Shown: positions 4,932 through 60,378 of the stretch, in pieces
How positions within the stretch are numbered: the stretch's first letter is position 1
Layout: each line of letters opens with the position of its first letter
DNA from: Chitinophaga horti
GTDB taxonomy: Bacteria; Bacteroidota; Bacteroidia; Chitinophagales; Chitinophagaceae
Direction of reading: 5' to 3'
Length of the DNA stretch: 64,000 bases
NCBI RefSeq assembly: GCF_022867795.2
Contig: NZ_CP107006.1
Span: 558,001-622,000 of the forward strand
The notes under the pieces: generated by a model
What the model was told of the DNA's origin: nothing
Databases searched by the model: none
The model's input: only the letters and a program-made list of their open reading frames with translations
Program-made: the position numbers and the translations under genes

Positions 4932-5726
4932 GTGAGTATACAGCACCAGATTGATCTTGCGAAGAAATACCTCCGGTACTACCTGAGCGCCGGCAACCGG
5001 CACGACGTGCATTCCCCTTTCGTGTTTTCGCTGATAGAAGAGGTTTTGAATAAGAAGGCTGCCCGTCCCGAGTACGCACCCATGGAAACACTGCGGGAAC
5101 AACTGCTGCAAAGTAAGGATATCGTAAACGTAACCGACCTGGGTGCCGGCTCCCTCACGGGGGCAGGCACCGAGCGTAAGATCAGCGACATCACCCGCCA
5201 TGCGGCTAAACCGCCGAAGTTCGGTCAGTTGTTTTACAGGCTGGTACAGTACTTTAAACCGGCCTACGTGCTGGAATTGGGCACCTCTATGGGAATGAGC
5301 ACTGCCTACATGGCCAAAGGCCGCCCGGAATCAACGATCTACACCATCGAAGGCTGCCCTAACATCACCGCGAAGGCGAAGGCAAACTTCGCATCGCTGG
5401 GGTTAACGAATGTGCGCCAGTTTACAGGCAACTTTGACGACGTATTACCGCAGGTGCTTGCACAGGTAACACCCGATTTCGTGTACATTGACGGTAACCA
5501 CCGCAAGGAGCCAACACTCGATTACTTCCGCCAGTGTGCCGCAAAAGCCTCCGAACATGCCGTATTCATTTTCGACGATATTCACTGGACGCCCGGCATG
5601 GAAGAAGCCTGGAAAACCATCCAGGACGATGAGCGTGTAACGCTAACGATCGACCTGTTTTTCATCGGGCTCGTCTTCTTCCGAAAAGATTTTAAAGTGA
5701 AGCAACACTTCACCATCAAGTTTTAA
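4932..5726 (+). CDS. Class I SAM-dependent methyltransferase (O-methyltransferase-like)
   Basis: 264 residues starting at GTG (4932). The preceding AAAAAGAGAT is a plausible ribosome-binding site, and no earlier ATG is available without running into the glycosyltransferase. The SAM-binding motif I is VLELGTSMGMST (about residue 113), motif II lies around YTIEGCP, and VYIDGNHRKEPT resembles the DxDH region of catechol O-methyltransferase-like enzymes. The acceptor substrate is unknown. It follows the GT2 gene by 10 bp and is closed by a strong terminator, so the pair form a two-gene operon. Confidence 0.82.
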   Translation: MSIQHQIDLAKKYLRYYLSAGNRHDVHSPFVFSLIEEVLNKKAARPEYAPMETLREQLLQSKDIVNVTDLGAGSLTGAGTERKISDITRHAAKPPKFGQLFYRLVQYFKPAYVLELGTSMGMSTAYMAKGRPESTIYTIEGCPNITAKAKANFASLGLTNVRQFTGNFDDVLPQVLAQVTPDFVYIDGNHRKEPTLDYFRQCAAKASEHAVFIFDDIHWTPGMEEAWKTIQDDERVTLTIDLFFIGLVFFRKDFKVKQHFTIKF

Positions 5727-5763
5727 CAAATGCCGGTCAGTAAGTTGACCGGCATTTGTTTTT
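5727..5763 (+). terminator. Rho-independent terminator after the methyltransferase gene
   Basis: CAAATGCCGGTCA and TGACCGGCATTTG form a 13-bp stem with a 6-nt loop, starting right after the TAA and followed by TTTTT. Confidence 0.88.
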
Positions 5764-5847
5764 AGTATAGTACCTGGAGTTTTCAACGATAGCCATCGAA
5801 GCCGCCCGTCGGAACTATTTAAGGTGAGTAACAATTACTAAAATAAA

Positions 5848-5879
5848 AAAGGGGCTGCTTTCTTAAAAGCAACCCCTTT
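5848..5879 (-). terminator. Terminator hairpin downstream of the TPP riboswitch (expression platform)
   Basis: Read on the minus strand, AAAGGGGTTGCTTT and AAAGCAGCCCCTTT pair (one G-U, loop TAAG) and run into TTTTTATTT. The stem begins 1 nt after the 3' strand of riboswitch helix P1, the usual spacing of a transcription-terminating riboswitch. Confidence 0.85.
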
Positions 5880-5880
5880 G

Positions 5881-5967
5881 CTGTTTCTTTTCCTTCGCCG
5901 GCATTACCCGGATCAGGTGTTAAAGGTTTAATCTCAGGCTTGTTACAGCCACCCTTGAAAGAAACAG
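5881..5967 (-). promoter_or_regulatory. TPP riboswitch (THI element) with no downstream gene
   Basis: On the minus strand this 87-nt segment has the full TPP aptamer signature: P1 strands CTGTTTCTTT (5958-5967) and AAAGAAACAG (5881-5890) pair perfectly over 10 bp. The conserved blocks CCTGAGAT, ACCTGATCC and GGTAATGCCGGCGAAGG occur in the right order, binding the pyrimidine and pyrophosphate halves of thiamine pyrophosphate. A terminator follows directly. Normally such an element precedes thiamine synthesis or transport genes. Here the next 120 bases on this strand hold no ORF and then run antisense into the convergent methyltransferase gene. It begins 23 nt after the stop of the DUF4142 gene, so it could also lie in that gene's 3' UTR. 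Confidence 0.9.
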
Positions 5968-5990
5968 TGTTCTGCACTAGCGTTGATTAA

Positions 5991-6620
5991 TTATTTTTTC
6001 GCGTCCAGCTTTTCTTTCAGCGTTTTAGCATGTTCCAGGTGTTTGCGCAGTTCTGGCAATGCATCTGTAAATGCTTTCTTTACATCAGGATCTTCGGCTT
6101 TTTCTGATGATTTCTCGAACATGTCGATAGTTTTCTCGTGTTTATCGATCAGATCATCTACATACGCTTTGTCAAAATCCAGTCCAGATTTCTCTGCTAC
6201 CTTGTCGATGTCGTTCTGCTGGCCCTGATCAACGCTTTCAGGCAGTGTGAACGATTTCTTAGCAGCCAGGTCACGCAGCTGTTTGTTCAGCTTAGTGTGT
6301 GCAGTTACCATCATAGCAGCTGCTTTTTTAACGTCTGCATCGGTGGCTTTAGCTTTCGCACCTTCAGAAGCTTTTACTTCATACAGGCCGGAGGCGTACG
6401 CCTTAACTACCCTTTTAGAATCATCTTCCAGGGAGTCAGTCGCAAATTTGTCCTTATTCATATCTATCGCGTCACTTTTAGTAACGGCAGAATCAGGAAT
6501 CTCGGTGTTTGCGCTGTCCGAGTTGTTTGTTGTGGTGCCGGAGTTACATGCATTTACCATCACAAAAGAACCAATGATCAATGCCATGCCGGGGAGCGTC
6601 TTCAATTTCAGAGTTTTCAT
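5991..6620 (-). CDS. DUF4142 domain lipoprotein
   Basis: 209 residues. The N-terminus is a lipoprotein signal with lipobox VNAC (Cys25), followed by a Ser/Thr/Asn-rich spacer. Residues about 65-205 are a four-helix, ferritin-like DUF4142 domain (KAYASGLYEVKASEGA, then AAMMVTAHTKLNKQL, then HEKTIDMFEKSS). The family is periplasmic or lipid-anchored and common in Bacteroidota and Proteobacteria; its biochemical role is not established. It stands alone on the minus strand, with a TPP riboswitch starting 23 nt after its stop codon. Whether the riboswitch shares its transcript cannot be told here. Confidence 0.88.
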   Translation of the reverse strand: MKTLKLKTLPGMALIIGSFVMVNACNSGTTTNNSDSANTEIPDSAVTKSDAIDMNKDKFATDSLEDDSKRVVKAYASGLYEVKASEGAKAKATDADVKKAAAMMVTAHTKLNKQLRDLAAKKSFTLPESVDQGQQNDIDKVAEKSGLDFDKAYVDDLIDKHEKTIDMFEKSSEKAEDPDVKKAFTDALPELRKHLEHAKTLKEKLDAKK

Positions 6621-6870
6621 GGTGTCCGATTTTTTCAGGAGTAGGGTTGAAAAGATTGTGCCAATGATGTAACCCCTTCATATTCTAACCTTTACCGGCA
6701 AAAGTTGTGGATGTGTATCCCCGATGCGGTGCCTCATGTGCATAAAAAAGCTGTGGAAATCCCAGATAAGTGCAGGTTAGATTAACTATTATTTATATAT
6801 TTATGCCTGTTTCAGATTATCCTTATTACCGATACTATTTATCCTTTTATCCGGCCGAAGAGCAACACCT

Positions 6871-7662
6871 ATGAAAACCGCCTTCACCATCGCCGCATTG
6901 CTGGTAGTGCAGTTATTGCATGCCCAGGGACCGCACATTAAAGCCGAAGCGCCGCTTCCGATACAGGAGAAGCTGGGCGTGGCATCCTGGTTATGTACTT
7001 ACGACAGCGTAGCTACATTTATATCTGATATTGCGATGACGATGCCTTACGATCAAAGGCAACGTATTGGTCGTCACTGGTTTTGCTACCAGGGAGTCGA
7101 TCGCCTGTGGCATGCCGTATTCGGCAAGTTTAATGGTAGCCAGTACGATGTGGTGAGCCATTATAAGATCATTGATACCACTTTTATAGACCAGGTGTGT
7201 GAGCAGGATTCTGCATTGCTGATCAGCTATTCCCGCGTGATTGATAAAGCGTATGCAGAAGCAGCGAAGATATTAGGGCCGTCGCAGGTACGGTTTAATA
7301 AGTTCCTGAAAAGTAATGCCGACAGTACGATCAGCATCTGGCTAATGCCTTCTGTACAATCAGCAGACATTGCGATGTACGGTGGGGAGTTTTACTATAA
7401 ATTTGATAAGCAGGGCAACGAAATACTTGATCGCACCGAATACTTCAGCGGGCGGTTCAGGGGTTTTAAGGTAGGTAGTCCGAGAGAGATCCATCTCGAC
7501 TACAGCCAGGACGATTCGCCTACACTCGGAGCAGTATATTTTGCATGGCGCAACCGGAAAGTTTTTGGTGACATCCACATCCAGAACAGGGCAAGCAGTA
7601 TGGTATTATCCTATAATGAGGATAAAGGGTACCATTGGGTTACGACCGGCAGGAAGAAATAG
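6871..7662 (+). CDS. Secreted protein of unknown function
   Basis: 263 residues with a short signal peptide (KTAFTIAALLVVQLLHAQ, cleavage after HA). I do not recognise the domain. The mature part is rich in aromatic residues and beta-prone stretches, with four cysteines (CTY, FCYQ, VCEQ and the region around residue 42), and no catalytic motif that I can name. It is monocistronic in appearance: about 250 bp of non-coding DNA upstream and 157 bp downstream to the next gene. The start at 6871 is chosen because it gives the clean signal peptide. Likely periplasmic or surface-located. Confidence 0.7.
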   Translation: MKTAFTIAALLVVQLLHAQGPHIKAEAPLPIQEKLGVASWLCTYDSVATFISDIAMTMPYDQRQRIGRHWFCYQGVDRLWHAVFGKFNGSQYDVVSHYKIIDTTFIDQVCEQDSALLISYSRVIDKAYAEAAKILGPSQVRFNKFLKSNADSTISIWLMPSVQSADIAMYGGEFYYKFDKQGNEILDRTEYFSGRFRGFKVGSPREIHLDYSQDDSPTLGAVYFAWRNRKVFGDIHIQNRASSMVLSYNEDKGYHWVTTGRKK

Positions 7663-9536: not shown

Positions 9537-10823
9537 CTATATGATCGACTGCATTGCCGATTTTGCGGCGTTGACAGTAAACTCGATATCTTCTGTAGTT
9601 AGCGCATTACTTACGAACCAAGTTTCGAAAGCAGATGGCGGCAAGTATACACCGCGCTCCAGCATGGCATGGAAGAAGCGGCGGAACAGCTCATTGTTTG
9701 CTCCCGAAGCAGACGTGAAGTCGACGATCGGGTACTCTGCAAAGTGTACGCTGATCATGGAACCGATCTGGTTGATCTGGTACACCACGCCAGCCGCGCC
9801 AAACGCTTCGCGCAGGCCGTTTGCCAGCAGGGTGGTCTTCTCTTCCAGCTGGCTGTAGATCCGTGGATTGTCGTTCAACGCATTCAGCAAAGTATAACCG
9901 GCGATCATCGCGATCGGGTTACCGCTAAGCGTACCCGCCTGGTAAACTTTACCAGCAGGTGCGATGTGTTCCATCAGCTCGCGGCGACCTGCGAAAGCGC
10001 CTACAGGCATGCCGCCACCGATGATTTTACCAAACGTTACGAGGTCGGCCTTGATGTTCAGTAGCTCCTGTGCGCCGCCACGGGCCAGGCGGAAGCCTGT
10101 CATTACTTCGTCGAGGATCAGCAGGATGCCGTGCTCGTCGCACAGTGCGCGTAAACCTTCGAGGAAGCCTGGTTGCGGCAGTATACAGCCCATGTTACCC
10201 GCCACCGGTTCGATGATGATCGCGGCGATCTGGTCGGGATTGTCAGCAATGAGTTGTTGCACGGCAGGCAGGTTGTTGTAGGGCGCAGTGAGCGTATCTT
10301 CCGCTACAGTGGCCGTTACACCTGGTACCGATTGTATACCTAAAGTAGCCACGCCACTGCCTGCACTTACTAAAAATGCATCGGCGTGACCGTGGTAGTT
10401 ACCTTCAAATTTGATGAACTTGTTTCTGCCGGTGTAGCCGCGTGCCAGCCTTAACGCTGTCATACAGGCCTCGGTGCCGGAGTTGACCATACGCACCATG
10501 TCGATGTTAGGCACCATGCTGATGATCAGTTCTGCTACTTTAATTTCCAGCTCCGTAGGCGCGCCGAAGGAAGTGGAGTAAGTGGCGTATTCCTGGATGG
10601 CATTCACCACCGGTTCGTAGGCGTGACCCAGTACCATTGGGCCCCAGGAGTTGATATAGTCGATATAACGGTTGCCGTCCACATCATACATATACGCACC
10701 TTTTGCCGACTTCATGAACACGGGTGTACCACCCACGCTGCGGAATGCACGAACGGGAGAGTTTACGCCGCCGGGCATCAGCGTTTGCGCTTTTTCGAAT
10801 AATGATTTGCTTTGGTCAAACAT
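9537..10823 (-). CDS. hemL: Glutamate-1-semialdehyde 2,1-aminomutase
   Basis: 428 residues, full length for a class III PLP aminotransferase of the HemL type. It converts glutamate-1-semialdehyde to 5-aminolevulinate, the second step of the C5 pathway. The PLP lysine is in VTFGKIIGGGMPVGA, the N-terminus has the family block LMPGGVNSPVRAF, and LILDEVMTGFR carries the cofactor-contacting aspartate. It is the last gene of the minus-strand haem operon, 29 bp after hemB, and a terminator follows. Having it next to hemA confirms the C5 rather than the Shemin route. Confidence 0.97.
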   Translation of the reverse strand: MFDQSKSLFEKAQTLMPGGVNSPVRAFRSVGGTPVFMKSAKGAYMYDVDGNRYIDYINSWGPMVLGHAYEPVVNAIQEYATYSTSFGAPTELEIKVAELIISMVPNIDMVRMVNSGTEACMTALRLARGYTGRNKFIKFEGNYHGHADAFLVSAGSGVATLGIQSVPGVTATVAEDTLTAPYNNLPAVQQLIADNPDQIAAIIIEPVAGNMGCILPQPGFLEGLRALCDEHGILLILDEVMTGFRLARGGAQELLNIKADLVTFGKIIGGGMPVGAFAGRRELMEHIAPAGKVYQAGTLSGNPIAMIAGYTLLNALNDNPRIYSQLEEKTTLLANGLREAFGAAGVVYQINQIGSMISVHFAEYPIVDFTSASGANNELFRRFFHAMLERGVYLPPSAFETWFVSNALTTEDIEFTVNAAKSAMQSII

Positions 10824-10852
10824 GGCTTTATTTGTTCGTCAGATTGATTTAA

Positions 10853-11824
10853 TTAACCGAGCAGTTTTACAGCATCTTTCGCGAAGTAAGTGGCGATAAG
10901 ATCGGCACCTGCGCGGCGAATGCTGGTAAGACTTTCGAGTACTGCCTTTTCTTCGTTCAGCCAGCCCATTTTAGCAGCCGCTTTGATCATGGCGTACTCG
11001 CCGCTCACATGATACGCGCTTACGGGTACGGTTACACTGTCTTTAATAAGACGCATAATATCGAGGTAGGCCATTGCTGGTTTCACCATTACAATGTCTG
11101 CTCCCTCGTCAATGTCCATCAGGGTTTCCTTAATGGCTTCGCGGGCATTGGCGTAGTCCATCTGGTAGGTTTTTTTATCACCAAAGCCAGGGGCAGAGTC
11201 TAATGCATCGCGGAAGGGGCCGTAAAAGCAGGACGCATATTTAGCGCTGTAGGCCATGATGCCCGTCTTCGTAAAATTGTTTTCTTCCAACGCCTCGCGG
11301 ATGGCCAGTATGCGGCCGTCCATCATATCGCTGGGCGCTACAATGTCCGCACCGGCTTCCGCATGGCTTACACTCATAGCGGCCAGCACTTCCACGGTGG
11401 CGTCGTTTACGATCTCTTCGCCTTCTACAATGCCGTCGTGGCCGTAGCTGGAGAAGGGGTCGAGCGCTACGTCGGTCATAACGACCATCGCAGGCACGGC
11501 GTCTTTCACGGTTTTAATGGCACGTTGCATGAGGCCGTTCGGGTTCAGTGCTTCGGTGCCTTTGTTATCTTTCAGGTGATCTTCACACTTTATAAAAAGT
11601 AATACGCTCTTAATACCAAGGTCCCACAGTTCTTTCACCTCTGTTTTCAGCAGATCGAGCGTATACCGGTAATAGCCGGGCATAGAAGATATTTCTTCCT
11701 TCTTATTGCTGCCTTCGATTACGAACAGCGGGGCAATAAAATGCTCGGGCCTTAAAATCGTTTCCGCCACCATAGCGCGGATAGCGGGCGATTGTCTGAG
11801 TATCCTGTTTCTTCTGATCATCAT
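10853..11824 (-). CDS. hemB: Porphobilinogen synthase (delta-aminolevulinate dehydratase)
   Basis: 323 residues; condenses two 5-aminolevulinate molecules to porphobilinogen. The Schiff-base lysines are in AYSAKYASCFYGP and MVKPAMAYLD. The active-site metal loop reads DVALDPFSSYGHDG: the three zinc cysteines of the animal and E. coli enzymes are replaced by Ala/Asp/Ser-type residues, so this belongs to the zinc-independent, magnesium-responsive class. It sits 25 bp after hemF and 29 bp before hemL in the operon. Confidence 0.97.
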   Translation of the reverse strand: MMIRRNRILRQSPAIRAMVAETILRPEHFIAPLFVIEGSNKKEEISSMPGYYRYTLDLLKTEVKELWDLGIKSVLLFIKCEDHLKDNKGTEALNPNGLMQRAIKTVKDAVPAMVVMTDVALDPFSSYGHDGIVEGEEIVNDATVEVLAAMSVSHAEAGADIVAPSDMMDGRILAIREALEENNFTKTGIMAYSAKYASCFYGPFRDALDSAPGFGDKKTYQMDYANAREAIKETLMDIDEGADIVMVKPAMAYLDIMRLIKDSVTVPVSAYHVSGEYAMIKAAAKMGWLNEEKAVLESLTSIRRAGADLIATYFAKDAVKLLG

Positions 11825-11849
11825 CTCTCCTTTATTTAAGATTGCTAAT

Positions 11850-12770
11850 TTACTTTATATTGATCCAATCCTGCGGCTTTAAATGTTCTATCAGTTCAGC
11901 CTCGGCACTGCCTGCTGCAGGATGGTAGTCGTACTCCCACCTTGCACGCGGCGGAAGGCTCATCAGGATTGATTCTATGCGTCCGTTGGTCTTTAAACCG
12001 AACAGGGTGCCTCGGTCGTGGATCAGGTTAAACTCCACATATCGGCCACGACGATATTCCTGCCAGTCGATGTGTTGCTGCCCGTAAGGCAAGTCCTTCC
12101 GCTTTTCCACGATCGGCAAATACGATTGAATGAACGCATTCCCGTTCGCCATCGAAAAGGCAAGAACGTCTTCCGCCTTTTGATCCGCGTTCGGGCGCAG
12201 GTAATCGTAAAAGATGCCACCAATACCACGGGCTTCATCACCACGATGTTTGTTGATGAAGTATTCGTCGCACACTTTTTTGTACTTCGGATACAGCGCT
12301 GTATCAAACTGATCGCAGGCGTTTTTGAAAGTCGTATGAAAGTGTTTGCCGTCTTCTTTGAACAGGTAGTAAGGAGTAAGATCTGCTCCACCACCAAACC
12401 AGCTGTCGATGAATGTACCGTTCTGATCGTACAGTTCAAAGTAGCGCCAGTTGGCATGCACGGTAGGCACAAAAGGGTTCAGCGGGTGTATAACCAGCGA
12501 GATACCGGCTGCCAGGAAGTTACAGTCTTCCTGCACGCCAAAGTGTTTGATCATGGCAGGCGCCAGACGACCGTGTACCACGGAAGTGTTCACACCGCCT
12601 TTCTCAAACACATTACCCCCACTAATGACGCGCGTAATACCGCCGCCACCTTCTTCGCGCACCCATTTATCTTCACGGAACTTAGCCTTGCCGTCGATCT
12701 GTTCCAATGCAGCGCAGATGTCGTTTTGCAAGCCGTGAATGAATGATATGAACTGATCTTTTATTGCCAT
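11850..12770 (-). CDS. hemF: Oxygen-dependent coproporphyrinogen III oxidase
   Basis: 306 residues, the usual length for HemF. It oxidatively decarboxylates two propionates of coproporphyrinogen III to give protoporphyrinogen IX, using O2. Family blocks include PTVHANWRYFEL, WFGGGADLTPYY and YVEFNLIHDRGT with the conserved histidines and the GRIESILMSLPP stretch. Dependence on O2 points to an aerobic organism; no hemN or hemZ is seen here. Only 2 bp separate it from the hemE stop, so the two are probably translationally coupled. Confidence 0.97.
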   Translation of the reverse strand: MAIKDQFISFIHGLQNDICAALEQIDGKAKFREDKWVREEGGGGITRVISGGNVFEKGGVNTSVVHGRLAPAMIKHFGVQEDCNFLAAGISLVIHPLNPFVPTVHANWRYFELYDQNGTFIDSWFGGGADLTPYYLFKEDGKHFHTTFKNACDQFDTALYPKYKKVCDEYFINKHRGDEARGIGGIFYDYLRPNADQKAEDVLAFSMANGNAFIQSYLPIVEKRKDLPYGQQHIDWQEYRRGRYVEFNLIHDRGTLFGLKTNGRIESILMSLPPRARWEYDYHPAAGSAEAELIEHLKPQDWINIK

Positions 12771-12772
12771 GA

Positions 12773-13802
12773 TTAAATGCTGTATTCTTTAACGGCGTCT
12801 ACAAAAGCACGGGCATGATCTACCGGAACGTGCGGTAATATACCATGACCCAGGTTCGCGATGTAACGTTGGGTGCCAAAGTTGTCGATCATGGTTTTCA
12901 CCGACTGTTTGATCACCGGGATAGGCGCCAGCAGTTTAGCCGGATCGAAGTTACCCTGCAAGGTGATGTTATTACCAGCAAACTGGCGTGCCAGCTGTGG
13001 TTTGATTGCCCAATCCACGCCCAGACCAGCAGCGCCGGTAGCGGCCATTTCCTCCAGTGCAAACCAGGCACCTTTGGCAAATACGATCACCGGGCAAACG
13101 TCTTTCAACGCAGCCACGATCTGGCGGATGTATTTAAGCGAGAAGTTCTCGAAGTCTTCGGGGCTTAACAGTCCGCCCCAGCTGTCGAACACCTGCACGG
13201 TATCTGCACCTGCTCTCACTTGTTCTTTCAGGTAAGCGATGGTGGTGTCGGTTACCATTTGCAATACCTGGTGTGCCGTTTCGGGTTGCGTGTAGCAAAA
13301 CTCTTTAGCGGCGTCGAAGGTTTTAGAACCTTTACCTTGTACCATGTAGCAGAGCAGCGTCCATGGAGCGCCGGCGAAACCGATCAACGGTACGCGGCCG
13401 GCGAGTGTTTTTTTTGTAAGTGCCAGCGCATCGAATACATATTGCAGTGATTCGTTCACGTTAGGCACGTGGATACGTTTTACGTCTGCCGCAGTCTTGA
13501 TCGGCTCTGGCAGCAGCGGGCCGAGTTTTTCCACCAGCTGTACTTCCATGCCCATGGCCTGTGGCACGACCAGAATGTCGGAGAAAATGATCGCGGCGTC
13601 CACACCCACCTGGTCAACCGGCATAACGGTAATTTCGGTGGCCAGTTCGGGGTTCTGGCAGCGCTCGAAGAAGGAATACTTTTCGCGCAGTTTGATGTAG
13701 TCGGAGGTAACGGCCTGCCTGGCGCATCATCCATACCGGTACGCGTTCTGTTTTTTCACCCTTCAGGGCCCTCAGCATGAGATCATTCTGTAATCCGCTC
13801 AT
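12773..13802 (-). CDS. hemE: Uroporphyrinogen decarboxylase, disrupted by a 2-nt frameshift
   Basis: Two frames together make one HemE. Residues 1-28 (start 13802, [17 protein letters not shown], then MMRQAGRYL) are in one frame. The rest, from [15 protein letters not shown] onward, is in another and runs to 12773. The break is at about 13701-13706, where 2 nt appear to be missing: TACCTCCGACTAC would need LPD between the tyrosines. Corrected length is about 343 residues, normal for the family. The Arg-containing substrate loop MRQAGRYL and the Asp of FSDIL are both present. HemE decarboxylates four acetates of uroporphyrinogen III. All other genes of the operon are intact, so a sequencing or assembly error is as likely as a true mutation. 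As read, the longest intact frame is 12773-13624, which lacks the catalytic N-terminus. Confidence 0.88.
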
Positions 13803-13805
13803 TCT

Positions 13806-14516
13806 TTACGATTGATTGTTGAAATAATGTATGGCTGTGTTGACAAGCCCGTCCGCCGTAGCGGCTTTGCTTACAACGATTGTGTTTTTTGTGTATTCGC
13901 GCAGTACGCCGGCCGTAGTATCACCGATCGCGAAGCAAATTACTTCGGGGGCGGGCGTATTGGCGGTGAAGTAACTGCGTATCCCACTCGGACTGTAAAA
14001 CAGTATCCCGTCGTATTGTCCTATGACGGTGTTTTGCAGTTCTGTCGTTTCATACACCGTTACCTCTTCGAAAGGCTGCTGGTGTTGTGTCAGCAGCGTA
14101 GGAAGCTCGTCGCGGCGGATGTTGCCGCAGAAAAATACGATATCCGTTGCTTCCTTTTGCAGTAGTATCGTAGCCAGTACGGCGCTGCTGGGTGCATGGG
14201 CGATTACCCGGCTGTTCGGGAAGTACTCCTGTACGGCGTCGATGGTGGCGCCGGGCAGGCAGTAGAGGTCCCAGGTGGCCGTGGTGGTATCGCCTAATGC
14301 GGCTACTGCTTTTACGGCATTGGCGCTGGTAAATACCGCGCTGATGCGGCGGGGCAGTAATGTTGCAAGACGGCTGCGCAATTCGGGCGTATCCTTGTAA
14401 TCGACGCTGATAAAAGCGCGGGGGATTATAAGGATGCCGTTATCCGCGGCTGCCTGCAGCAGCGCGGCGTCAATTCTTTTGGTACTGAGTACGCGGTATT
14501 TATAAGGCGCCAGCAT
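13806..14516 (-). CDS. hemD: Uroporphyrinogen-III synthase
   Basis: 236 residues from the ATG at 14516 (MLAPYKYRVLSTKR); an upstream ATG at 14573 lies deep inside hemC and gives a less natural N-terminus. HemD is poorly conserved, but the two-domain pattern is visible: VFTSANAVKAV in domain 1, and FYSPSGIRSYF with FAIGDTTAGVLREY in domain 2. It closes hydroxymethylbilane to uroporphyrinogen III with inversion of ring D. It overlaps the hemC end by 17 bp and lies 3 bp before hemE, which supports the call. Confidence 0.9.
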   Translation of the reverse strand: MLAPYKYRVLSTKRIDAALLQAAADNGILIIPRAFISVDYKDTPELRSRLATLLPRRISAVFTSANAVKAVAALGDTTTATWDLYCLPGATIDAVQEYFPNSRVIAHAPSSAVLATILLQKEATDIVFFCGNIRRDELPTLLTQHQQPFEEVTVYETTELQNTVIGQYDGILFYSPSGIRSYFTANTPAPEVICFAIGDTTAGVLREYTKNTIVVSKAATADGLVNTAIHYFNNQS

Positions 14517-15426
14517 TCCTGATTTGTTCAACGATGTGCGCACCGCCCTGTTGCAGTACTTCCTGTGCGGCATCCTGGCCCAGCGTAGCGGTTTGGGCTA
14601 CGGGCAGGGTCCTTTCTACGGTGTAAGACACCAGGCCGTCCAGGCTGCACAGGTTACCCTCGAACCACAGCGTATCGCCTTCGATGCGGGCAAATGCGCT
14701 GATCGGAGTAGTGCATCCGCCCATCAACGTCCGCAGGAAGTCGCGCTCGATCTTCGTACACAGGGCCGTGGTATCGTGGTTAATGGGGGTGATGGCTTCG
14801 CGGCAGTAATCGTCGTTGTCGCGGCAAACCACTACAACGGCGCCTTGTGCGGGGGCGGGCAGCATCCAGTCCAGTTCTACGGACTCCGGAGGTCGTACCC
14901 CGATCCTTTCCAGTCCTGCAGCCGCGAAGATGGCGCCATTCCAGTTTTCGGCCGACAGTTTCTGCAGGCGGGTGTTTACGTTACCGCGCAGGTTGTGCAG
15001 CTCGTGGTTCGGGAAACGACGCAGCCACTGTGCCTTACGGCGAATGCTGCTCGTCGCAATATGTGCAATGCCCTCCTGGTCGTCCAGGAAGGAAAGGTCG
15101 TTTTTATATACCAGTAAATCCTTAACAGGACCGCGCTCCAATACCGCAGCCTGCATAATACCCTTAGGCAGTTGAGTAGGAACGTCTTTGAGAGAGTGTA
15201 CGGCAATATCTATTTTACCGGCCAGCAAGGCAATGTCCAGGCTTTTAGTGAAGATGCCCTGTACGCCGATCTCGTATAACGGGGTTACGAGATCGATATC
15301 GCCATCGCTTTTTATGGGAACCAGTTCTGTTGCGTATCCTTGTTGTGTAAGCAGGTCTTTTACCTGGTTAGCCTGCCACAAGGCGAGCTGGCTTTCCCGG
15401 GTACCTATTCTGATCGTTTTTTGCAT
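14500..15426 (-). CDS. hemC: Hydroxymethylbilane synthase (porphobilinogen deaminase)
   Basis: 308 residues. It polymerises four porphobilinogens to hydroxymethylbilane on a dipyrromethane cofactor. The N-terminal signature IGTRESQLALWQA, the SLKDVPTQLP block and the cofactor-binding cysteine in TLMGGCTTPISA are all present. It starts 7 bp after the hemA stop and overlaps hemD. Confidence 0.97.
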   Translation of the reverse strand: MQKTIRIGTRESQLALWQANQVKDLLTQQGYATELVPIKSDGDIDLVTPLYEIGVQGIFTKSLDIALLAGKIDIAVHSLKDVPTQLPKGIMQAAVLERGPVKDLLVYKNDLSFLDDQEGIAHIATSSIRRKAQWLRRFPNHELHNLRGNVNTRLQKLSAENWNGAIFAAAGLERIGVRPPESVELDWMLPAPAQGAVVVVCRDNDDYCREAITPINHDTTALCTKIERDFLRTLMGGCTTPISAFARIEGDTLWFEGNLCSLDGLVSYTVERTLPVAQTATLGQDAAQEVLQQGGAHIVEQIRNAGAL

Positions 15427-15433
15427 GAGCTTA

Positions 15434-16687
15434 TTAATCCTGATGAACGCCAGTCTCGAAAATATCGTTGATCATGGCTATGTACTGGTCGCTCTTGTCT
15501 GTTTCTTTCCGCACTTTACCCGCCATGAGGTTGATCATTTTCTGGATAATGCGGGAAGATACTTCTTCCACATCTTCCAGTTTATACGCATTGCCGTTCT
15601 TTTGCTGCGCGATTTCACGTGTGTGAATCTCCTGCAGTTTATCTTTCACCGCTTTTAACACCACGGCGTGTTTACGCATTTTATGCCAGTACAAAAACTC
15701 CTGCATATGCTCATCGATGATGGATTGCGCTTTCGGTACTTCCGTTAACCTGTTCTGCAGGGTTTCGTCCTGTACCTTGGAGAGTTCGTCTACGTTCACC
15801 ACTTCTACGTGCGACAATTCATTTACATCGTTCGCTACGTTAAACGGAATGGAAAGGTCGATCACCAGTTTGGGAGATGTGTTTTCCAGTTGTGATTTAA
15901 CGATGGTAGGTTGGGTGGCATTGGTGGCTACAAGGATTACGTCGGCATCTTTTAACGCGCCGCCCAGTCCGTCGAACGGTACATATTGCAAACCATGTGC
16001 GGTGGCAAATTGTTCCGCCGCAGCAATGGTGCGGTTTACGAGTAAGATGTTGCGGGTGCCGAGGTAGTCCATCATGTTTTTCGCAGTGTTGCGGCCTATC
16101 TTGCCTACACCGAGTAACACGATCTTTTTATCTTTGATATCGGTGATCTTACGTTCGAGCAACCTTACAGCGGCAAAGGCCACAGATACGGTGCCGGAGC
16201 TAAGGCCGGTTTCATTCTTGATTAATTTAGATACCTGCAATACGCTGTTTACCAATCGCTCCAAAAAACTTCCGATGCAGCCATTTGCTTTCGCAAACTT
16301 AGCCGCAGTTCTGATCTGCCCCACGACTTCATAGTCGCCGAGGATCTGCGAATCCAGACCGGTACCTACCTGGTAAAGATGCCTGATGGCCGCTTCGCCG
16401 GATTTAACGTAGGCTACCTGTTTGAAGGAATCGAGTGAACCTGCTGTTTGTGTACAGAGTAACGCCATCAACTGTTCCGGGTCCGTTGCAAAGCCATAAA
16501 CTTCGGTCCTGTTACAAGTTGACAGAATGAAAAGGTCATTCAACCGCGCACTTTTCGCTTCTTCCAGAACGTGTTGATATTGTTCCTGGTTAACCGCGAA
16601 TAATCCTCTGATGGCAGCGTCTGTTTTCTTATAGTTGAGTCCAACGATATGAAAATGTGATATGTCTCTAGGGTAGTTGACCTGCAT
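15434..16687 (-). CDS. hemA: Glutamyl-tRNA reductase
   Basis: 417 residues. It reduces glutamyl-tRNA(Glu) to glutamate-1-semialdehyde with NADPH, the first committed step of the C5 pathway. The nucleophilic cysteine is in LSTCNRTEVYG, the Rossmann segment is VLLGVGKIGRNTAKN, and a C-terminal dimerisation helix region follows. It is the first gene of the haem operon; a TATTTTTG box lies 26 nt upstream. HemA is usually the control point of the pathway. Confidence 0.97.
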   Translation of the reverse strand: MQVNYPRDISHFHIVGLNYKKTDAAIRGLFAVNQEQYQHVLEEAKSARLNDLFILSTCNRTEVYGFATDPEQLMALLCTQTAGSLDSFKQVAYVKSGEAAIRHLYQVGTGLDSQILGDYEVVGQIRTAAKFAKANGCIGSFLERLVNSVLQVSKLIKNETGLSSGTVSVAFAAVRLLERKITDIKDKKIVLLGVGKIGRNTAKNMMDYLGTRNILLVNRTIAAAEQFATAHGLQYVPFDGLGGALKDADVILVATNATQPTIVKSQLENTSPKLVIDLSIPFNVANDVNELSHVEVVNVDELSKVQDETLQNRLTEVPKAQSIIDEHMQEFLYWHKMRKHAVVLKAVKDKLQEIHTREIAQQKNGNAYKLEDVEEVSSRIIQKMINLMAGKVRKETDKSDQYIAMINDIFETGVHQD

Positions 16688-16712
16688 TTTATTTTTTCTA
16701 AGCTTCCGGGTG

Positions 16713-16720
16713 CAAAAATA
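16713..16720 (-). promoter_or_regulatory. -7 promoter box of the haem operon
   Basis: Minus-strand TATTTTTG, fitting TAnnTTTG, 25 nt upstream of the hemA ATG. No well-spaced -33 TTG is obvious. Confidence 0.45.
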
Positions 16721-16873
16721 CTGGCATACACTTCAAAAGCGGGCAGCACGACGTCATTAGTGTGTCATTTCTCCAATGGTGGCGGATCTTACGAAAAAAT
16801 GACTTTCATCATCTTTAAAAAAAGATTAGTGTACATGTGCAGGTAAAATTCCTTTTATTCAACAATTATATGA

Positions 16874-16889
16874 CATATCTTAGGATATG
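16874..16889. promoter_or_regulatory. Palindrome CATATC-TTAG-GATATG upstream of hemH
   Basis: Two perfect 6-bp arms around a 4-nt spacer, ending 17 bp before the TAGCTTTG box of hemH, where the -33 region is expected. Position and symmetry suggest a dimeric regulator site, but this is inference. Confidence 0.35.
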
Positions 16890-16906
16890 GTGCGGTGAAA
16901 TGAGAG

Positions 16907-16914
16907 TAGCTTTG
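16907..16914 (+). promoter_or_regulatory. -7 promoter box of hemH
   Basis: TAGCTTTG fits TAnnTTTG, 32 nt before the hemH ATG at 16947. Confidence 0.45.
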
Positions 16915-16946
16915 CATCTTCAAATCTAAAGGTCAGTATTAAGGTC

Positions 16947-18002
16947 ATGAGCTCAACTTCTGAAACAGGAATCATATTGATGAACCTGGGATCTCCCGAT
17001 TCCACCGCCGTTCCCGACGTAAAACGTTATTTATCTGAATTTCTGATGGACAAAAGGGTGATCGATTATCCCTGGCTGATCCGTAAGATCGTGGTAGATG
17101 GTCTTATCGTTCCCCGTCGTTCACCCAAATCGGCGGAAGCTTACAAATCAATATGGTGGGAAGAAGGTTCTCCGTTGATCGTACTGACAAAACAATTACA
17201 GGCGGCCGTTGCTTCGGTAGTGAAAGATATGCCGGTAGAGATCGCGATGCGGTACGGGCATCCTTCGCCGCAGTATGCCTTCGGCAAAATGCTGAAAGAA
17301 AACCCAGACCTGAAAGAAGTCGTGTTGCTGCCATTGTACCCGCACTACGCTATGTCCAGCTACGAAACGGCGGTAGAATATGCAAAAGATATCTATCAGA
17401 AGAAACAATATCCGTTTAAGCTCACGATCATTAAACCGTATTATAATGACGAAGCTTATATCGATGCACTGGCCGACAGTATGCGTCCGTACGTAGAACA
17501 GGAATACGATCACCTGCTGTTCAGCTACCACGGCGTACCGGTAAGGCACATCCGCAAAGGAGATATTACCGGTCAGCATTGCCTGAAGGTGAATGATTGC
17601 TGCAACGTGGCGAGCGAAGCGCATAAACAATGTTACCGTCACCAGGTTATCACTACATCGATGCTGGTAGCGCAAAAACTTGGCATCCCGAAAGATAAGT
17701 GGAGCGTATCCTTCCAAAGCCGCCTGGGCCGCGAGGAGTGGATTCAACCTTATACCGCCAACGAGTTCCTCGAACTGCCTAAACGTGGTAAGAAGAAACT
17801 GCTGGTGGCTTGTCCCGCCTTCGTAAGTGACTGCCTGGAAACATTGGAGGAGATTGGCGAAGAAGGTAAACACTCCTTCCTGGAAGCGGGGGGCGAAAGT
17901 TTTACCATGATCCCGTGCCTGAATACGCACCCTGCCTGGGTTAACACCGTGGCGAAATGGGGTACGGACATTCGCGAGGGGCAACGTGAGATGGCGGTGT
18001 AA
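16947..18002 (+). CDS. hemH: Ferrochelatase
   Basis: 351 residues. It inserts Fe(II) into protoporphyrin IX, the last step of protohaem synthesis. MNLGSPDSTAVPDVKRYL is the family N-terminus. The metal-site histidine is in FSYHGVPVRHIRKGD and the acidic residue in SDCLETLEEIGEE. A cysteine-containing loop (KVNDCCNVASEAHKQC) is seen in several bacterial members. It is divergent from hemA with a 259-bp shared control region and ends at a two-way terminator facing the sulfatase operon. No protoporphyrinogen oxidase gene (hemG, hemY or hemJ) is found in this window. Confidence 0.97.
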   Translation: MSSTSETGIILMNLGSPDSTAVPDVKRYLSEFLMDKRVIDYPWLIRKIVVDGLIVPRRSPKSAEAYKSIWWEEGSPLIVLTKQLQAAVASVVKDMPVEIAMRYGHPSPQYAFGKMLKENPDLKEVVLLPLYPHYAMSSYETAVEYAKDIYQKKQYPFKLTIIKPYYNDEAYIDALADSMRPYVEQEYDHLLFSYHGVPVRHIRKGDITGQHCLKVNDCCNVASEAHKQCYRHQVITTSMLVAQKLGIPKDKWSVSFQSRLGREEWIQPYTANEFLELPKRGKKKLLVACPAFVSDCLETLEEIGEEGKHSFLEAGGESFTMIPCLNTHPAWVNTVAKWGTDIREGQREMAV

Positions 18003-50517: not shown

Positions 50518-51696
50518 ATGCGACAAGACCTGTTCCAATCGCCCGATTACTACCAGGTAGACGATCTGCTGTCAGAAGAACATAAGTTAGTCCGTGAGGC
50601 GGTGAGACAATGGGTGAAACAATCGCTCAGCCCGATCATCGAAGAACATTGCCAGCGCGCCGAGTTCCCGAAACATTTATTACCCGGATTAGGCAGTTTA
50701 GGCTGCTTCGGCCCCACTATTCCCACCGAATACGGCGGCGGCGGGCTGGACCAGATTGCGTACGGGCTCATGATGCAGGAGCTGGAGCGGGGGGATAGCG
50801 GGATACGTTCTACTGCTTCGGTACAGGGTTCGCTGGTGATGTACCCGATTTTGCAGTACGGCAGCGAGGAACAGAAACGTAAATATCTTCCTAAACTGGC
50901 TACGGGCGAGATGATGGGCTGCTTCGGCCTCACAGAGCCAGATTTCGGCTCCAACCCCGCCGGTATGCTTACTTACTTTGATGAAGACGGCGACCATATT
51001 ATCCTCAACGGCGCGAAGATGTGGATTTCCAATGCGCCCTTTGCAGATATAGCTATTGTGTGGGCCAAAGACCCCGATCGCAAAGTGCGTGGCGTGATTG
51101 TGGAGCGCGGCATGGAAGGCTTCTCGACCCCGGAAACAAAAGGTAAATGGAGCCTGCGGGCGAGCGCCACCGGCGAACTGGTGCTTGATAATGTACGCAT
51201 CCCTAAATCCAACATATTAGCGGAGGCCCGCGGGTTAAAGGCGCCGCTGTCCTGCCTGGACGCTGCCCGCTACGGCATTGCCTGGGGCGCTATCGGTGCG
51301 GCGATGGATTGTTACGACACGGCTTTACGTTATGCGCAGGAGCGGGTGCAGTTCGACAGGCCTATAGCGGGCTTCCAATTAACACAAAAGAAACTGGCCG
51401 AAATGGTGACCGAGATCACCAAGGCGCAGCTCATGAACTGGCGGTTAGGCGTGTTGAAGAACGAAAACAAAGCGCGTCCCGAACAGATATCCATGGCTAA
51501 ACGAAATGCCTGCGAAACCGCGTTGAAGATTGCACACGATGCCCGTCAGATACTGGGTGCCATGGGCATTGCGGGCGAGTATCCCATCATGCGGCACCTC
51601 ATGAACCTGGAGAGTGTGGTGACTTATGAAGGCACCCACGAAATTCATTTACTGATCACCGGTATGGATATTACCGGCCAAAATGCGTTTAAATAG
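50518..51696 (+). CDS. gcdH: Glutaryl-CoA dehydrogenase-type acyl-CoA dehydrogenase
   Basis: 392 residues, FAD flavoprotein of the acyl-CoA dehydrogenase family. Two features point to the glutaryl-CoA type: the arginine in SGIRSTASVQGSLVM, which binds the distal carboxylate, and the catalytic glutamate in TYEGTHEIH. GCFGLTEPDFGSNPAG and KMWISNAPFADI are FAD and substrate loops. It oxidises and decarboxylates glutaryl-CoA to crotonyl-CoA in lysine and tryptophan breakdown. ApbE follows with a 14-bp overlap, probably by chance of packing. Confidence 0.9.
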   Translation: MRQDLFQSPDYYQVDDLLSEEHKLVREAVRQWVKQSLSPIIEEHCQRAEFPKHLLPGLGSLGCFGPTIPTEYGGGGLDQIAYGLMMQELERGDSGIRSTASVQGSLVMYPILQYGSEEQKRKYLPKLATGEMMGCFGLTEPDFGSNPAGMLTYFDEDGDHIILNGAKMWISNAPFADIAIVWAKDPDRKVRGVIVERGMEGFSTPETKGKWSLRASATGELVLDNVRIPKSNILAEARGLKAPLSCLDAARYGIAWGAIGAAMDCYDTALRYAQERVQFDRPIAGFQLTQKKLAEMVTEITKAQLMNWRLGVLKNENKARPEQISMAKRNACETALKIAHDARQILGAMGIAGEYPIMRHLMNLESVVTYEGTHEIHLLITGMDITGQNAFK

Positions 51697-52696
51697 ACTG
51701 ATGTTCCGCGCTTTCCTTTTAATCGCCTGCCTGTGCGGCAGCCTGCACAGCCATAGCCAGCGACTAGTCACGTTCGAGGGTCAGGCACAGGGTACTTATT
51801 ACATTGTAAAATATCTTTCGGAGGATACTGTTTCGCTGCAACCACAGGTGACTGCCTTGTTCCGGGAGATCGATGCTTCGCTTTCGCTATGGCAGCCGGC
51901 ATCTTTGATCAACCGCTTTAACGAAAGCGAGCGTGGGGTGTTGATGGATGCGCATATGCGTACGGTGGTCAAACGTGCGCAGGAAGTGAGCAGGGCGACA
52001 AAGGGCGCATTCGATATTACCGTTAAGCCACTGGTAGATCTCTGGGGATTTGGGGTGATACGGCATCAGCGTAAGCCATCGGCCGATAGTATTCGTTACG
52101 CGCTGCAATTCACCGGTTACAAGCTTTTACAGGTGAAAGGCGATTCGTTGATAAAAAAGAAAGCGCAGGTGCAGATCGATGCAAATGGTGTGGCACAAGG
52201 GTATACAACAGATTGTGTGGCTCGTTTGCTGGAAAGCTGTGGAATTGCGAATTACCTGGTAGATGTGGGAGGGGAGCTGCGTGCCAAGGGTGTGAATGCC
52301 CGCGGTAATAGCTGGAGTGTGGGCATCGAACGCCCGTCCGGCGCAGCCGCCCGTCCGCAACAGGCACTCCTGTACCTCGCGCAAAAATCCATTGCGACCA
52401 GTGGCAACTACCGCCGCTTTTTCGATGAGGGCAAAACAAGATATGCGCACACGATCGATCCCAAAACGGGTATTGCGTTGCATAGTAACGTGATCAGTGT
52501 AACAGTGGTGGCCGACGATTGCATCACTTCCGACGCATTTGATAATGCATTGATGCTCTGGGGGCCGGAGAAGGGGTTGAAGTTTATTCGCCAACACCCG
52601 GAACTACGTCTTGAAGCGGCTTACATCTTCACCAAAAAAAAGGGCGAAACGAAAGAAGCGTATTCGCCCGGTTTCCTGGAGATGATGAAAAAATAA
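51683..52696 (+). CDS. apbE: FAD:protein FMN transferase (ApbE)
   Basis: 337 residues (start ATG 51683, overlapping gcdH, or ATG 51701) with a signal peptide (FRAFLLIACLCGSLHSHSQ). It attaches FMN to Thr/Ser of target proteins in the periplasm, for example in the Na+-pumping NADH:quinone oxidoreductase. Family motifs: AQGTYYIVKY, DINANGVAQGYTTD-like DANGVAQGY, VDVGGELRAKG, IATSGNYRRFF and HTIDPKTG. Target flavoproteins are not in this window. Confidence 0.94.
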   Translation: MRLNRLMFRAFLLIACLCGSLHSHSQRLVTFEGQAQGTYYIVKYLSEDTVSLQPQVTALFREIDASLSLWQPASLINRFNESERGVLMDAHMRTVVKRAQEVSRATKGAFDITVKPLVDLWGFGVIRHQRKPSADSIRYALQFTGYKLLQVKGDSLIKKKAQVQIDANGVAQGYTTDCVARLLESCGIANYLVDVGGELRAKGVNARGNSWSVGIERPSGAAARPQQALLYLAQKSIATSGNYRRFFDEGKTRYAHTIDPKTGIALHSNVISVTVVADDCITSDAFDNALMLWGPEKGLKFIRQHPELRLEAAYIFTKKKGETKEAYSPGFLEMMKK

Positions 52697-60294: not shown

Positions 60295-60378
60295 GCGGAG
60301 GTGGCGAAATTGGTAGACGCGCTACTTTGAGGTGGTAGTGCCCGAAAGGGCTTGAGAGTTCGAATCTCTTCTTCCGCA
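60295..60378 (+). tRNA. tRNA-Leu, anticodon GAG
   Basis: 84 nt, class II. The acceptor stem is GCGGAGG/CTTCCGC (one G-U); the anticodon stem CTACT/GGTAG encloses TTGAGGT, giving anticodon GAG (60329-60331), which reads CUC and CUU. The long variable arm TGCCCGAAAGGGC and the T arm with TTCGAAT are present; discriminator A at 60378 is expected for leucine. CCA is not encoded and must be added. A promoter and a terminator flank it. Confidence 0.95.

Follow-up and report, generated by a model that had tools for sequence, protein, structure and literature searches.

A candidate class of TPP-aptamer RNAs with no downstream gene to serve, present in Chitinophaga horti in the 3' UTR of a DUF4142 gene

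A TPP aptamer, the vitamin B1 sensor RNA that normally sits upstream of thiamine genes, lies on the minus strand of Chitinophaga horti between a DUF4142 gene and a convergent methyltransferase gene, within the 64,000-nucleotide stretch of DNA that was analysed (the window). A preliminary description had read this aptamer, and a terminator directly behind it, from the letters alone and had proposed an Infernal check with RF00059. In a cmscan run that took in the whole window and 4227 families, RF00059 matched positions 5966-5873 of the minus strand at 62.8 bits, above the curated gathering score of 54.3 (E 6e-10), indicating that the aptamer is real; a tRNA at 60295-60378 was the second match, and there were no further ones. 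The features of the locus are as follows, with G and L numbers denoting our genomes and loci (G000, the genome of C. horti).

5844..5970, minus strand: TPP aptamer and terminator as one RNA unit (G000:C1:563844-563970; 116.7 bits with model R1 and 109.3 bits with model R2, the window copy having belonged to the training sets of both)
5873..5966, minus strand: TPP aptamer (RF00059; 62.8 bits, cut-off 54.3)
5958..5967, minus strand: 5' arm of the P1 helix (10 bp), from folding
5881..5890, minus strand: 3' arm of the P1 helix (10 bp), from folding
5848..5879, minus strand: stem of the intrinsic terminator, 14 pairs, with a T-rich tail to about 5838; G015 and G082 retain it although their aptamer core is gone
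5991..6620, minus strand: DUF4142 gene with the aptamer in its 3' UTR (PF13628, 125.3 bits)
6648..6663, minus strand: sigma54-like -24/-12 element TGGCACAATCTTTTCA upstream of the DUF4142 gene (pattern match)
6871..7662, plus strand: divergent partner gene without a Pfam match, the marker of the orthologous locus
4932..5726, plus strand: convergent methyltransferase gene (Methyltransf_24, by Pfam scan), inconstant as a downstream neighbour

Further details of the preliminary description were also borne out. The P1 helix is perfect over 10 bp (5' arm 5967-5958, 3' arm 5890-5881); GCCTGAGATT occupies 5939-5930 and the P4/P5 block 5918-5892. The terminator stem (5879-5848) directly follows, with 14 pairs, 6 of them G-C, and T-rich sequence beyond. 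As a scan of 2401 bases gave 3 such terminators against a mean of 2.5 in shuffled sequence, the scan by itself is no proof, and it is conservation that supports the terminator. The DUF4142 stop codon (5991) stands 23 nt before P1. Downstream on the minus strand, a reading of the open reading frames gave no gene-like frame before the convergent methyltransferase gene, which has its own terminator (5725-5760, plus strand) and is separated from the RNA by about 120 nt. The minus-strand frames past the RNA's terminator, such as a TTG-initiated 63-aa frame at 5643-5834 that is antisense to the methyltransferase gene, were judged spurious, and a missed downstream gene was rejected or given little weight as an explanation. 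The list of open reading frames of at least 150 aa contained no thiamine gene in the window. Genes read by eye include a large cluster at 9537-18002, which we take to be a haem pathway (hemL, hemB, hemF, hemE, hemD, hemC and hemA, with a divergent hemH), and at 51683-52696 an ApbE-like protein, presumably a non-thiamine gene although its family formerly took its name from thiamine biosynthesis.

The genome of C. horti (6.3 Mb, one contig) has two TPP loci besides the window copy, L001 at 67.5 bits and L003 at 54.1 bits, just below the cut-off. From their sequences, we take L001 to precede a thiS-like frame and L003 a frame for a TonB-receptor-like protein. A second DUF4142 gene (L188, G000:C1:4490846-4491253, 115 bits) has none of the three TPP loci nearby.

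To follow the locus across the genus, a DNA search was made of 59 relatives, of which 14 matched, and a covariance model of aptamer plus terminator (R1), built from seven loci, was run on 79 genomes of the genus, that of C. horti included. R1 gave 50 matches of at least 75 bits, followed by one at 63.6 bits (G007, kept) and one at 61.1 bits (G087, canonical); the genus set was taken from the matches ranking above L109, itself canonical and set aside. By this search, at least 51 orphan loci are present in 48 of the 79 genomes. In the other 31, nothing scored within the orphan range under strict filters, and since multi-genome searches use such filters, absences across genomes are soft.

The synteny check recommended in the preliminary description showed that in 13 of the 79 genomes, C. 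horti included, the same DUF4142 gene stands immediately upstream of the RNA, the CTGAGA core starting 34-53 nt past its stop codon. We call these loci DUF4142-type after that upstream gene, and the evidence for them is the recurrence of the same gene together with the same divergent partner gene, which is found at all 13. At one of them (L059), the frame caller placed an antisense frame upstream, yet the DUF4142 gene is present. Beyond the terminator, the gene differs among the 13: the methyltransferase gene is next in three (C. horti, G069 and G071) and second in G021, and in 10 of the 13, automatic calling gives a first downstream gene of the opposite strand, these opposite-strand neighbours being mostly unrelated to one another. 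No thi gene was seen by eye downstream of the 13 loci, family scans having covered part of the downstream genes. Because the DUF4142 gene and its partner are constant and the downstream genes vary, the aptamer appears to be tied to the upstream gene, which speaks against a lost thi gene.

The divergent partner is present in 21 of the 79 genomes, that is, at the 13 aptamer loci and in eight more genomes, and the proteins nearest to that of the window are those of G015 and G082 (78% and 76% identity). In both of these, a P1-like remnant and the terminator are retained and the aptamer core is gone; in G079, the 5' half of the aptamer is missing at the DUF4142 locus; and in G061, G033 and G084, DUF4142 is followed by the terminator only, with no aptamer found there by eye or by model. 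Among the R1 matches listed, G015, G082 and G084 have none above 56 bits anywhere in the genome, and G061, G033 and G070 have a free-standing copy elsewhere. In G001 and G070, the stretch beside the divergent partner gave no DUF4142 match; that of G001 (L199) contains what look by eye like near-identical repeated segments. Where DUF4142 lacks the aptamer in G015, G061 and G033, its promoter-like element and terminator are both retained. Since relatives without the aptamer core still have the terminator, the terminator belongs to the DUF4142 mRNA, and the comparison presents the aptamer as an insert placed after the DUF4142 stop codon and before the terminator of the same gene, one that can be lost. 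The DUF4142-linked form is dispensable, having been lost in close relatives.

The search was then widened with a second model (R2, from 51 sequences), run on 294 genomes of other genera of the family and on 395 genomes of the class. Over all searches, at least 96 orphan loci in 88 genomes were obtained. The genus accounts for 51 of them, other genera of the family for 41 and other families of the class for 4; they represent the upper part of the best matches listed and are not a census. Apart from the 13 DUF4142-type loci, 83 are free-standing, 38 of them in the genus, outside any 3' UTR. The family set comprises 26 new loci together with 20 fetched regions, in all of which one or more matches reached about 72 bits; it omits G122, G144, G152, G314 and G178 (72-75 bits) and lower matches, and G129 corresponds to L183, which is canonical. 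L113, a duplicate of L138b, and L147, which was ambiguous, were dropped, and L145, L146, L153 and L154 were classed as canonical. Among 29 new loci in the class search, four were orphan (L158, L159, L160 and L178), in four other families, and 25 were not; of the latter, L161 (aptamer not located) and L170 (short flank) were excluded from the controls. The canonical control consists of 28 genus loci, namely the best-scoring TPP matches, mostly of the thiS type, and the two further loci of C. horti, with L045 left out, together with 27 family and class loci (n = 55).

The canonical TPP riboswitches of the same genomes (RF00059; thiS or TonB-receptor type) have the same aptamer fold and pocket as the orphans and differ from them in their surroundings. 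The next gene is on the same strand in 52 of the 55 canonical loci (27/28 in the genus, 25/27 in the wider set), whereas in the 96 orphans it is on the same strand in only 51, on the opposite strand in 44 and absent in one. A terminator just past the aptamer was found at 1 of the 28 canonical genus loci and, by a loose finder, at 10 of the 27 wider ones; among the orphans, it is present at 96 of 96, partly by construction, because R1 and R2 include the terminator. The predicted length of the free-standing RNA has a median of 133 nt (range 112-172; 76 loci measured), and 8 of the 88 genomes have two copies in the set. In L138 (G311), two free-standing copies lie about 5 kb apart, surrounded by what look by eye like glycosyltransferase and sensor-kinase genes. 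A second, weaker TPP-like match was seen 1.1-1.2 kb past the free-standing copy in L089 (783-892, 39.3 bits) and L100 (3251-3349, 32.9 bits), and in the five loci L120, L123, L124, L125 and L127 (genus g93), the P3 arm contains a long additional insert.

Alignment of the 96 RNAs showed covariation of the helices: 96.9% of the cells pair, both sides have changed at 21 of the 24 pairs, and double changes occupy 401 cells against a shuffle mean of 99, in an alignment fitted to the structure and with P1 outside the count. For P1, pairing within a locus averages -10.0 kcal/mol against -5.95 kcal/mol across loci, and for the median RNA, 89% of the swapped partners pair more weakly. The bases that contact TPP have been given as G19, G40, G42, A43, G72, C77 and G78 (PMC7824784). 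Five of these seven were mapped, by our own assignment, onto CUGAGA and GCG, and they are kept in 96 (G40), 96 (G42), 96 (A43), 95 (C77) and 95 (G78) of the 96 loci, the window copy having all five; by this mapping, the TPP pocket is nearly invariant over the set. Two loci, L101 (G064) and L108 (G007), have GTG or GCA in place of GCG and changes of the CCTGA block in or next to the pocket, and are perhaps decaying or altered in their choice of ligand. Outside the aptamer core, no conserved unpaired stretch and no conserved seed were found in the 96 RNAs, the most constant unpaired columns being single bases (for example, an A past the aptamer in 77 of 96 and a G ahead of the terminator stem in 78 of 96). 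In ligand-free folding, the terminator has a median pairing probability of 1.00 and P1 one of 0.98 (above 0.8 in 83% of the RNAs), and the thermodynamic ensemble, which ignores co-transcriptional kinetics and was computed without a known switch as positive control, gave no competition between aptamer and terminator.

A further shared feature lies upstream, in a region outside the model used for finding the loci. The motif [CT]GGCA[CT] occurs 25-62 nt before P2 in 74 of the 83 free-standing loci, in contrast to 1 of the 55 canonical loci (Fisher 1.3e-27, only a guide value because the species are related) and to 1-3 of 83 in each of six displaced windows. Three of the nine loci counted as lacking it (L085, L096 and L150) do show the element, which was missed because the anchor had been placed wrongly; the count was left at 74. 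Over these 74 loci, the required motif is followed by five bases and then by T in 72, T in 58, T in 46 and C in 33, so that the second part usually reads TTTC instead of TTGC, and a C (38/74) and an A (54/74) recur about where transcription would be expected to start. The published sigma54 promoter has TGGCAC, N5-7 and TTGCT at -24/-12 (PMC12316311), and these 74 loci show this -24/-12 layout at fixed spacing. Scored against the 12-position sigma54 pattern, 12 of the 38 genus free-standing loci reached 11-12, as did 0 of 228 control windows; 8 of the 38 scored only 8-9, and exactly 9 was reached by 52 of the 228 control windows. All 13 DUF4142 genes carry the element before the start codon, with 11 or 12 of the 12 positions. 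Across the genome of C. horti, the pattern is not enriched (8 occurrences against 9 in the reversed control); the genome has one Sigma54_DBD match, an rpoN, at 184 bits. In Flavobacterium psychrophilum, proteostasis and envelope-stress genes are described as driven by sigma54 promoters (PMC9723704).

We also examined the genes within two positions of the orphan loci, by BLAST clusters and Pfam scans of single representatives, which gives counts inflated by shared ancestry: Usp-family proteins are found at 17 loci, all in the genus, DUF4142 at 19 (18 from the cluster, with L059 in addition; 13 of the 19 are of the fused type), DUF892 at 7 and Hsp20 at 2. In G013, G035, G361 and G127, a free-standing copy has a DUF4142 gene as its divergent neighbour, so that the DUF4142 link is seen in another arrangement as well, and also beyond the genus. 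At L118 (G303), the gene divergent from the free-standing copy looks by eye like a transketolase, a TPP enzyme; this is probably chance.

Four explanations had been offered for the window locus, and two of them found no support. In one, the RNA is a TPP riboswitch whose thi gene has been lost or has moved and which is now decaying, in keeping with the absence of an adjoining thi gene, with the aptamer deletions in the close relatives G015, G082 and G079, and with an earlier survey that allows for recently orphaned aptamers (PMC2258182). However, the 13 loci have in common the same DUF4142 gene and partner and not a downstream gene, the downstream genes being varied and none thi-like by eye; the pocket is intact across divergent species and the helices covary (401 against 99, the alignment being fitted to the structure); and the promoter-like element is found at 74 of the 83 free-standing copies. 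We therefore regard a relic as improbable. The RNA also does not stand 5' of a same-strand thiamine-related gene, as a cis-acting TPP riboswitch would, with thiamine genes judged by eye. Still less probable, and in our estimate very much so, is a TPP-gated terminator that lets antisense transcription read through into the convergent methyltransferase gene. The gene begins about 120 nt downstream, the first downstream gene is called on the opposite strand in 10 of the 13 loci, and a SAM precedent is known in the antisense S-box RNA of Clostridium acetobutylicum, likewise an aptamer with a terminator facing a convergent gene (PMC2258182). Unlike that RNA, the window RNA shows no terminator/antiterminator competition in folding, with the ligand-free terminator probability near 1, and its convergent gene is inconstant: the neighbours are mostly unrelated, the methyltransferase gene is next in 3 of 13, orientation over the class is nearly even (51 against 44), and no conserved convergent target gene was found. 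As a general role, antisense read-through is thus unsupported.

The proposal of 3'-UTR control was right as to position, for the comparison of relatives with and without the aptamer places it between the DUF4142 stop codon and the terminator. That the aptamer is a cis element of the DUF4142 mRNA, in which TPP binding in the 3' UTR alters mRNA stability or 3'-end formation, would suit the near-fixed position of the core (34-53 nt past the stop in 13 loci, with the terminator just beyond) and the free-standing copies divergent to DUF4142 in four genomes; but 83 of the 96 copies are free of any coding region, promoter-like element and terminator persist without the aptamer in G015, G061 and G033, and aptamer and terminator do not compete in thermodynamic folding, so that we consider this role unlikely. 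A slightly better chance, though a small one, may be given to the RNA as a TPP sink, abundant enough to bind TPP and thereby derepress thi operons or buffer TPP under stress. Conservation of only the pocket, closing helix, terminator and promoter-like element, with no seed, agrees with it, as do the two copies in 8 of 88 genomes, whereas TPP pools are likely larger than the RNA copy number.

The reading that we favour, with moderate confidence, is that these TPP-aptamer RNAs form a conserved class without a downstream gene to serve, the window copy being its 3'-UTR form. In C. horti and in dozens of its relatives, the RNA is used on its own, behind a stress-type gene or as a small RNA with a promoter-like element, and the gene that follows is therefore probably not what it acts on. 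Among the options of the preliminary description, a trans-acting or decoy RNA appears the best supported, with 83 free-standing relatives, 74 of them with the promoter-like element. We infer from such features that the RNAs are transcribed, bind TPP and act in trans, in a manner that may be pictured as follows. In C. horti, the DUF4142 gene and the aptamer would probably be transcribed as a unit from a sigma54-type promoter. In most relatives, aptamer and terminator would make up an RNA of about 130 nt that stands free and has a sigma54-like element of its own; genes of the stress type (Usp, DUF4142, DUF892 and Hsp20) are often nearby. The RNA would fold, bind TPP and end at the terminator with or without TPP, and TPP occupancy would come into play only once transcription is over, in trans or by way of how long the RNA itself lasts; most likely, a partner would read the RNA, bound or free, as a signal, or TPP would be titrated. 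It is the conservation of the pocket, closing helix, terminator and promoter-like element, and not of the downstream gene or any unpaired stretch, that suggests a TPP-binding RNA acting in trans or on itself, rather than a cis switch. Put in full, free-standing TPP-binding small RNAs of a sigma54 stress regulon of the family, sometimes fused to a DUF4142 3' UTR, would report or buffer TPP in trans, a proposal to which we give about an even chance and in which the action in trans is a guess.

By definition, a riboswitch is part of an mRNA and acts in cis. Aptamer RNAs that work away from a cis gene have nevertheless been described, namely SreA, AspocR and Rli55 (PMC8079631). The trans-acting SAM riboswitches SreA and SreB and Rli55 of Listeria likewise consist of an aptamer RNA with a terminator that forms a small RNA; according to the same account (PMC8079631), SreA is a by-product of a cis switch before an operon, and Rli55 has an extra ANTAR-like part. 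In the orphan TPP RNAs, neither a cis target nor an extra domain was seen, and the promoter looks like a sigma54 one. The plant TPP riboswitch (PMC2258182, PMC10043782) likewise places a TPP aptamer in a 3' UTR, although it works via splicing of a 3'-UTR intron, which has no counterpart here. Barrick and Breaker (2007) noted a handful of solitary high-scoring aptamers that were not upstream of related genes and proposed trans action or orphaning for them (PMC2258182); in comparison with these, the present RNAs are a recurrent class with a shared promoter-like element, terminator and neighbours. In Agrobacterium, a TPP-leader transcript of about 110 nt has been described, with the suggestion of a search for trans targets (PMC3738593), and in Bacteroides, TPP riboswitches have been described before thiamine operons (PMC5613172). 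No published description of the orphan TPP RNA class was found in the open-licence PubMed Central literature.

Should the full proposal hold, these RNAs would be a kind of riboswitch aptamer of which no member regulates a gene in cis. A recurrent class of TPP aptamers that has a sigma54-like promoter element and terminator of its own and lacks a cis target would mean that metabolite aptamers are able to persist as stand-alone RNA genes. The old suggestion of trans-acting solitary aptamers (PMC2258182) becomes directly testable with it, and the class would link vitamin B1 status with a stress programme, either of the envelope or general.
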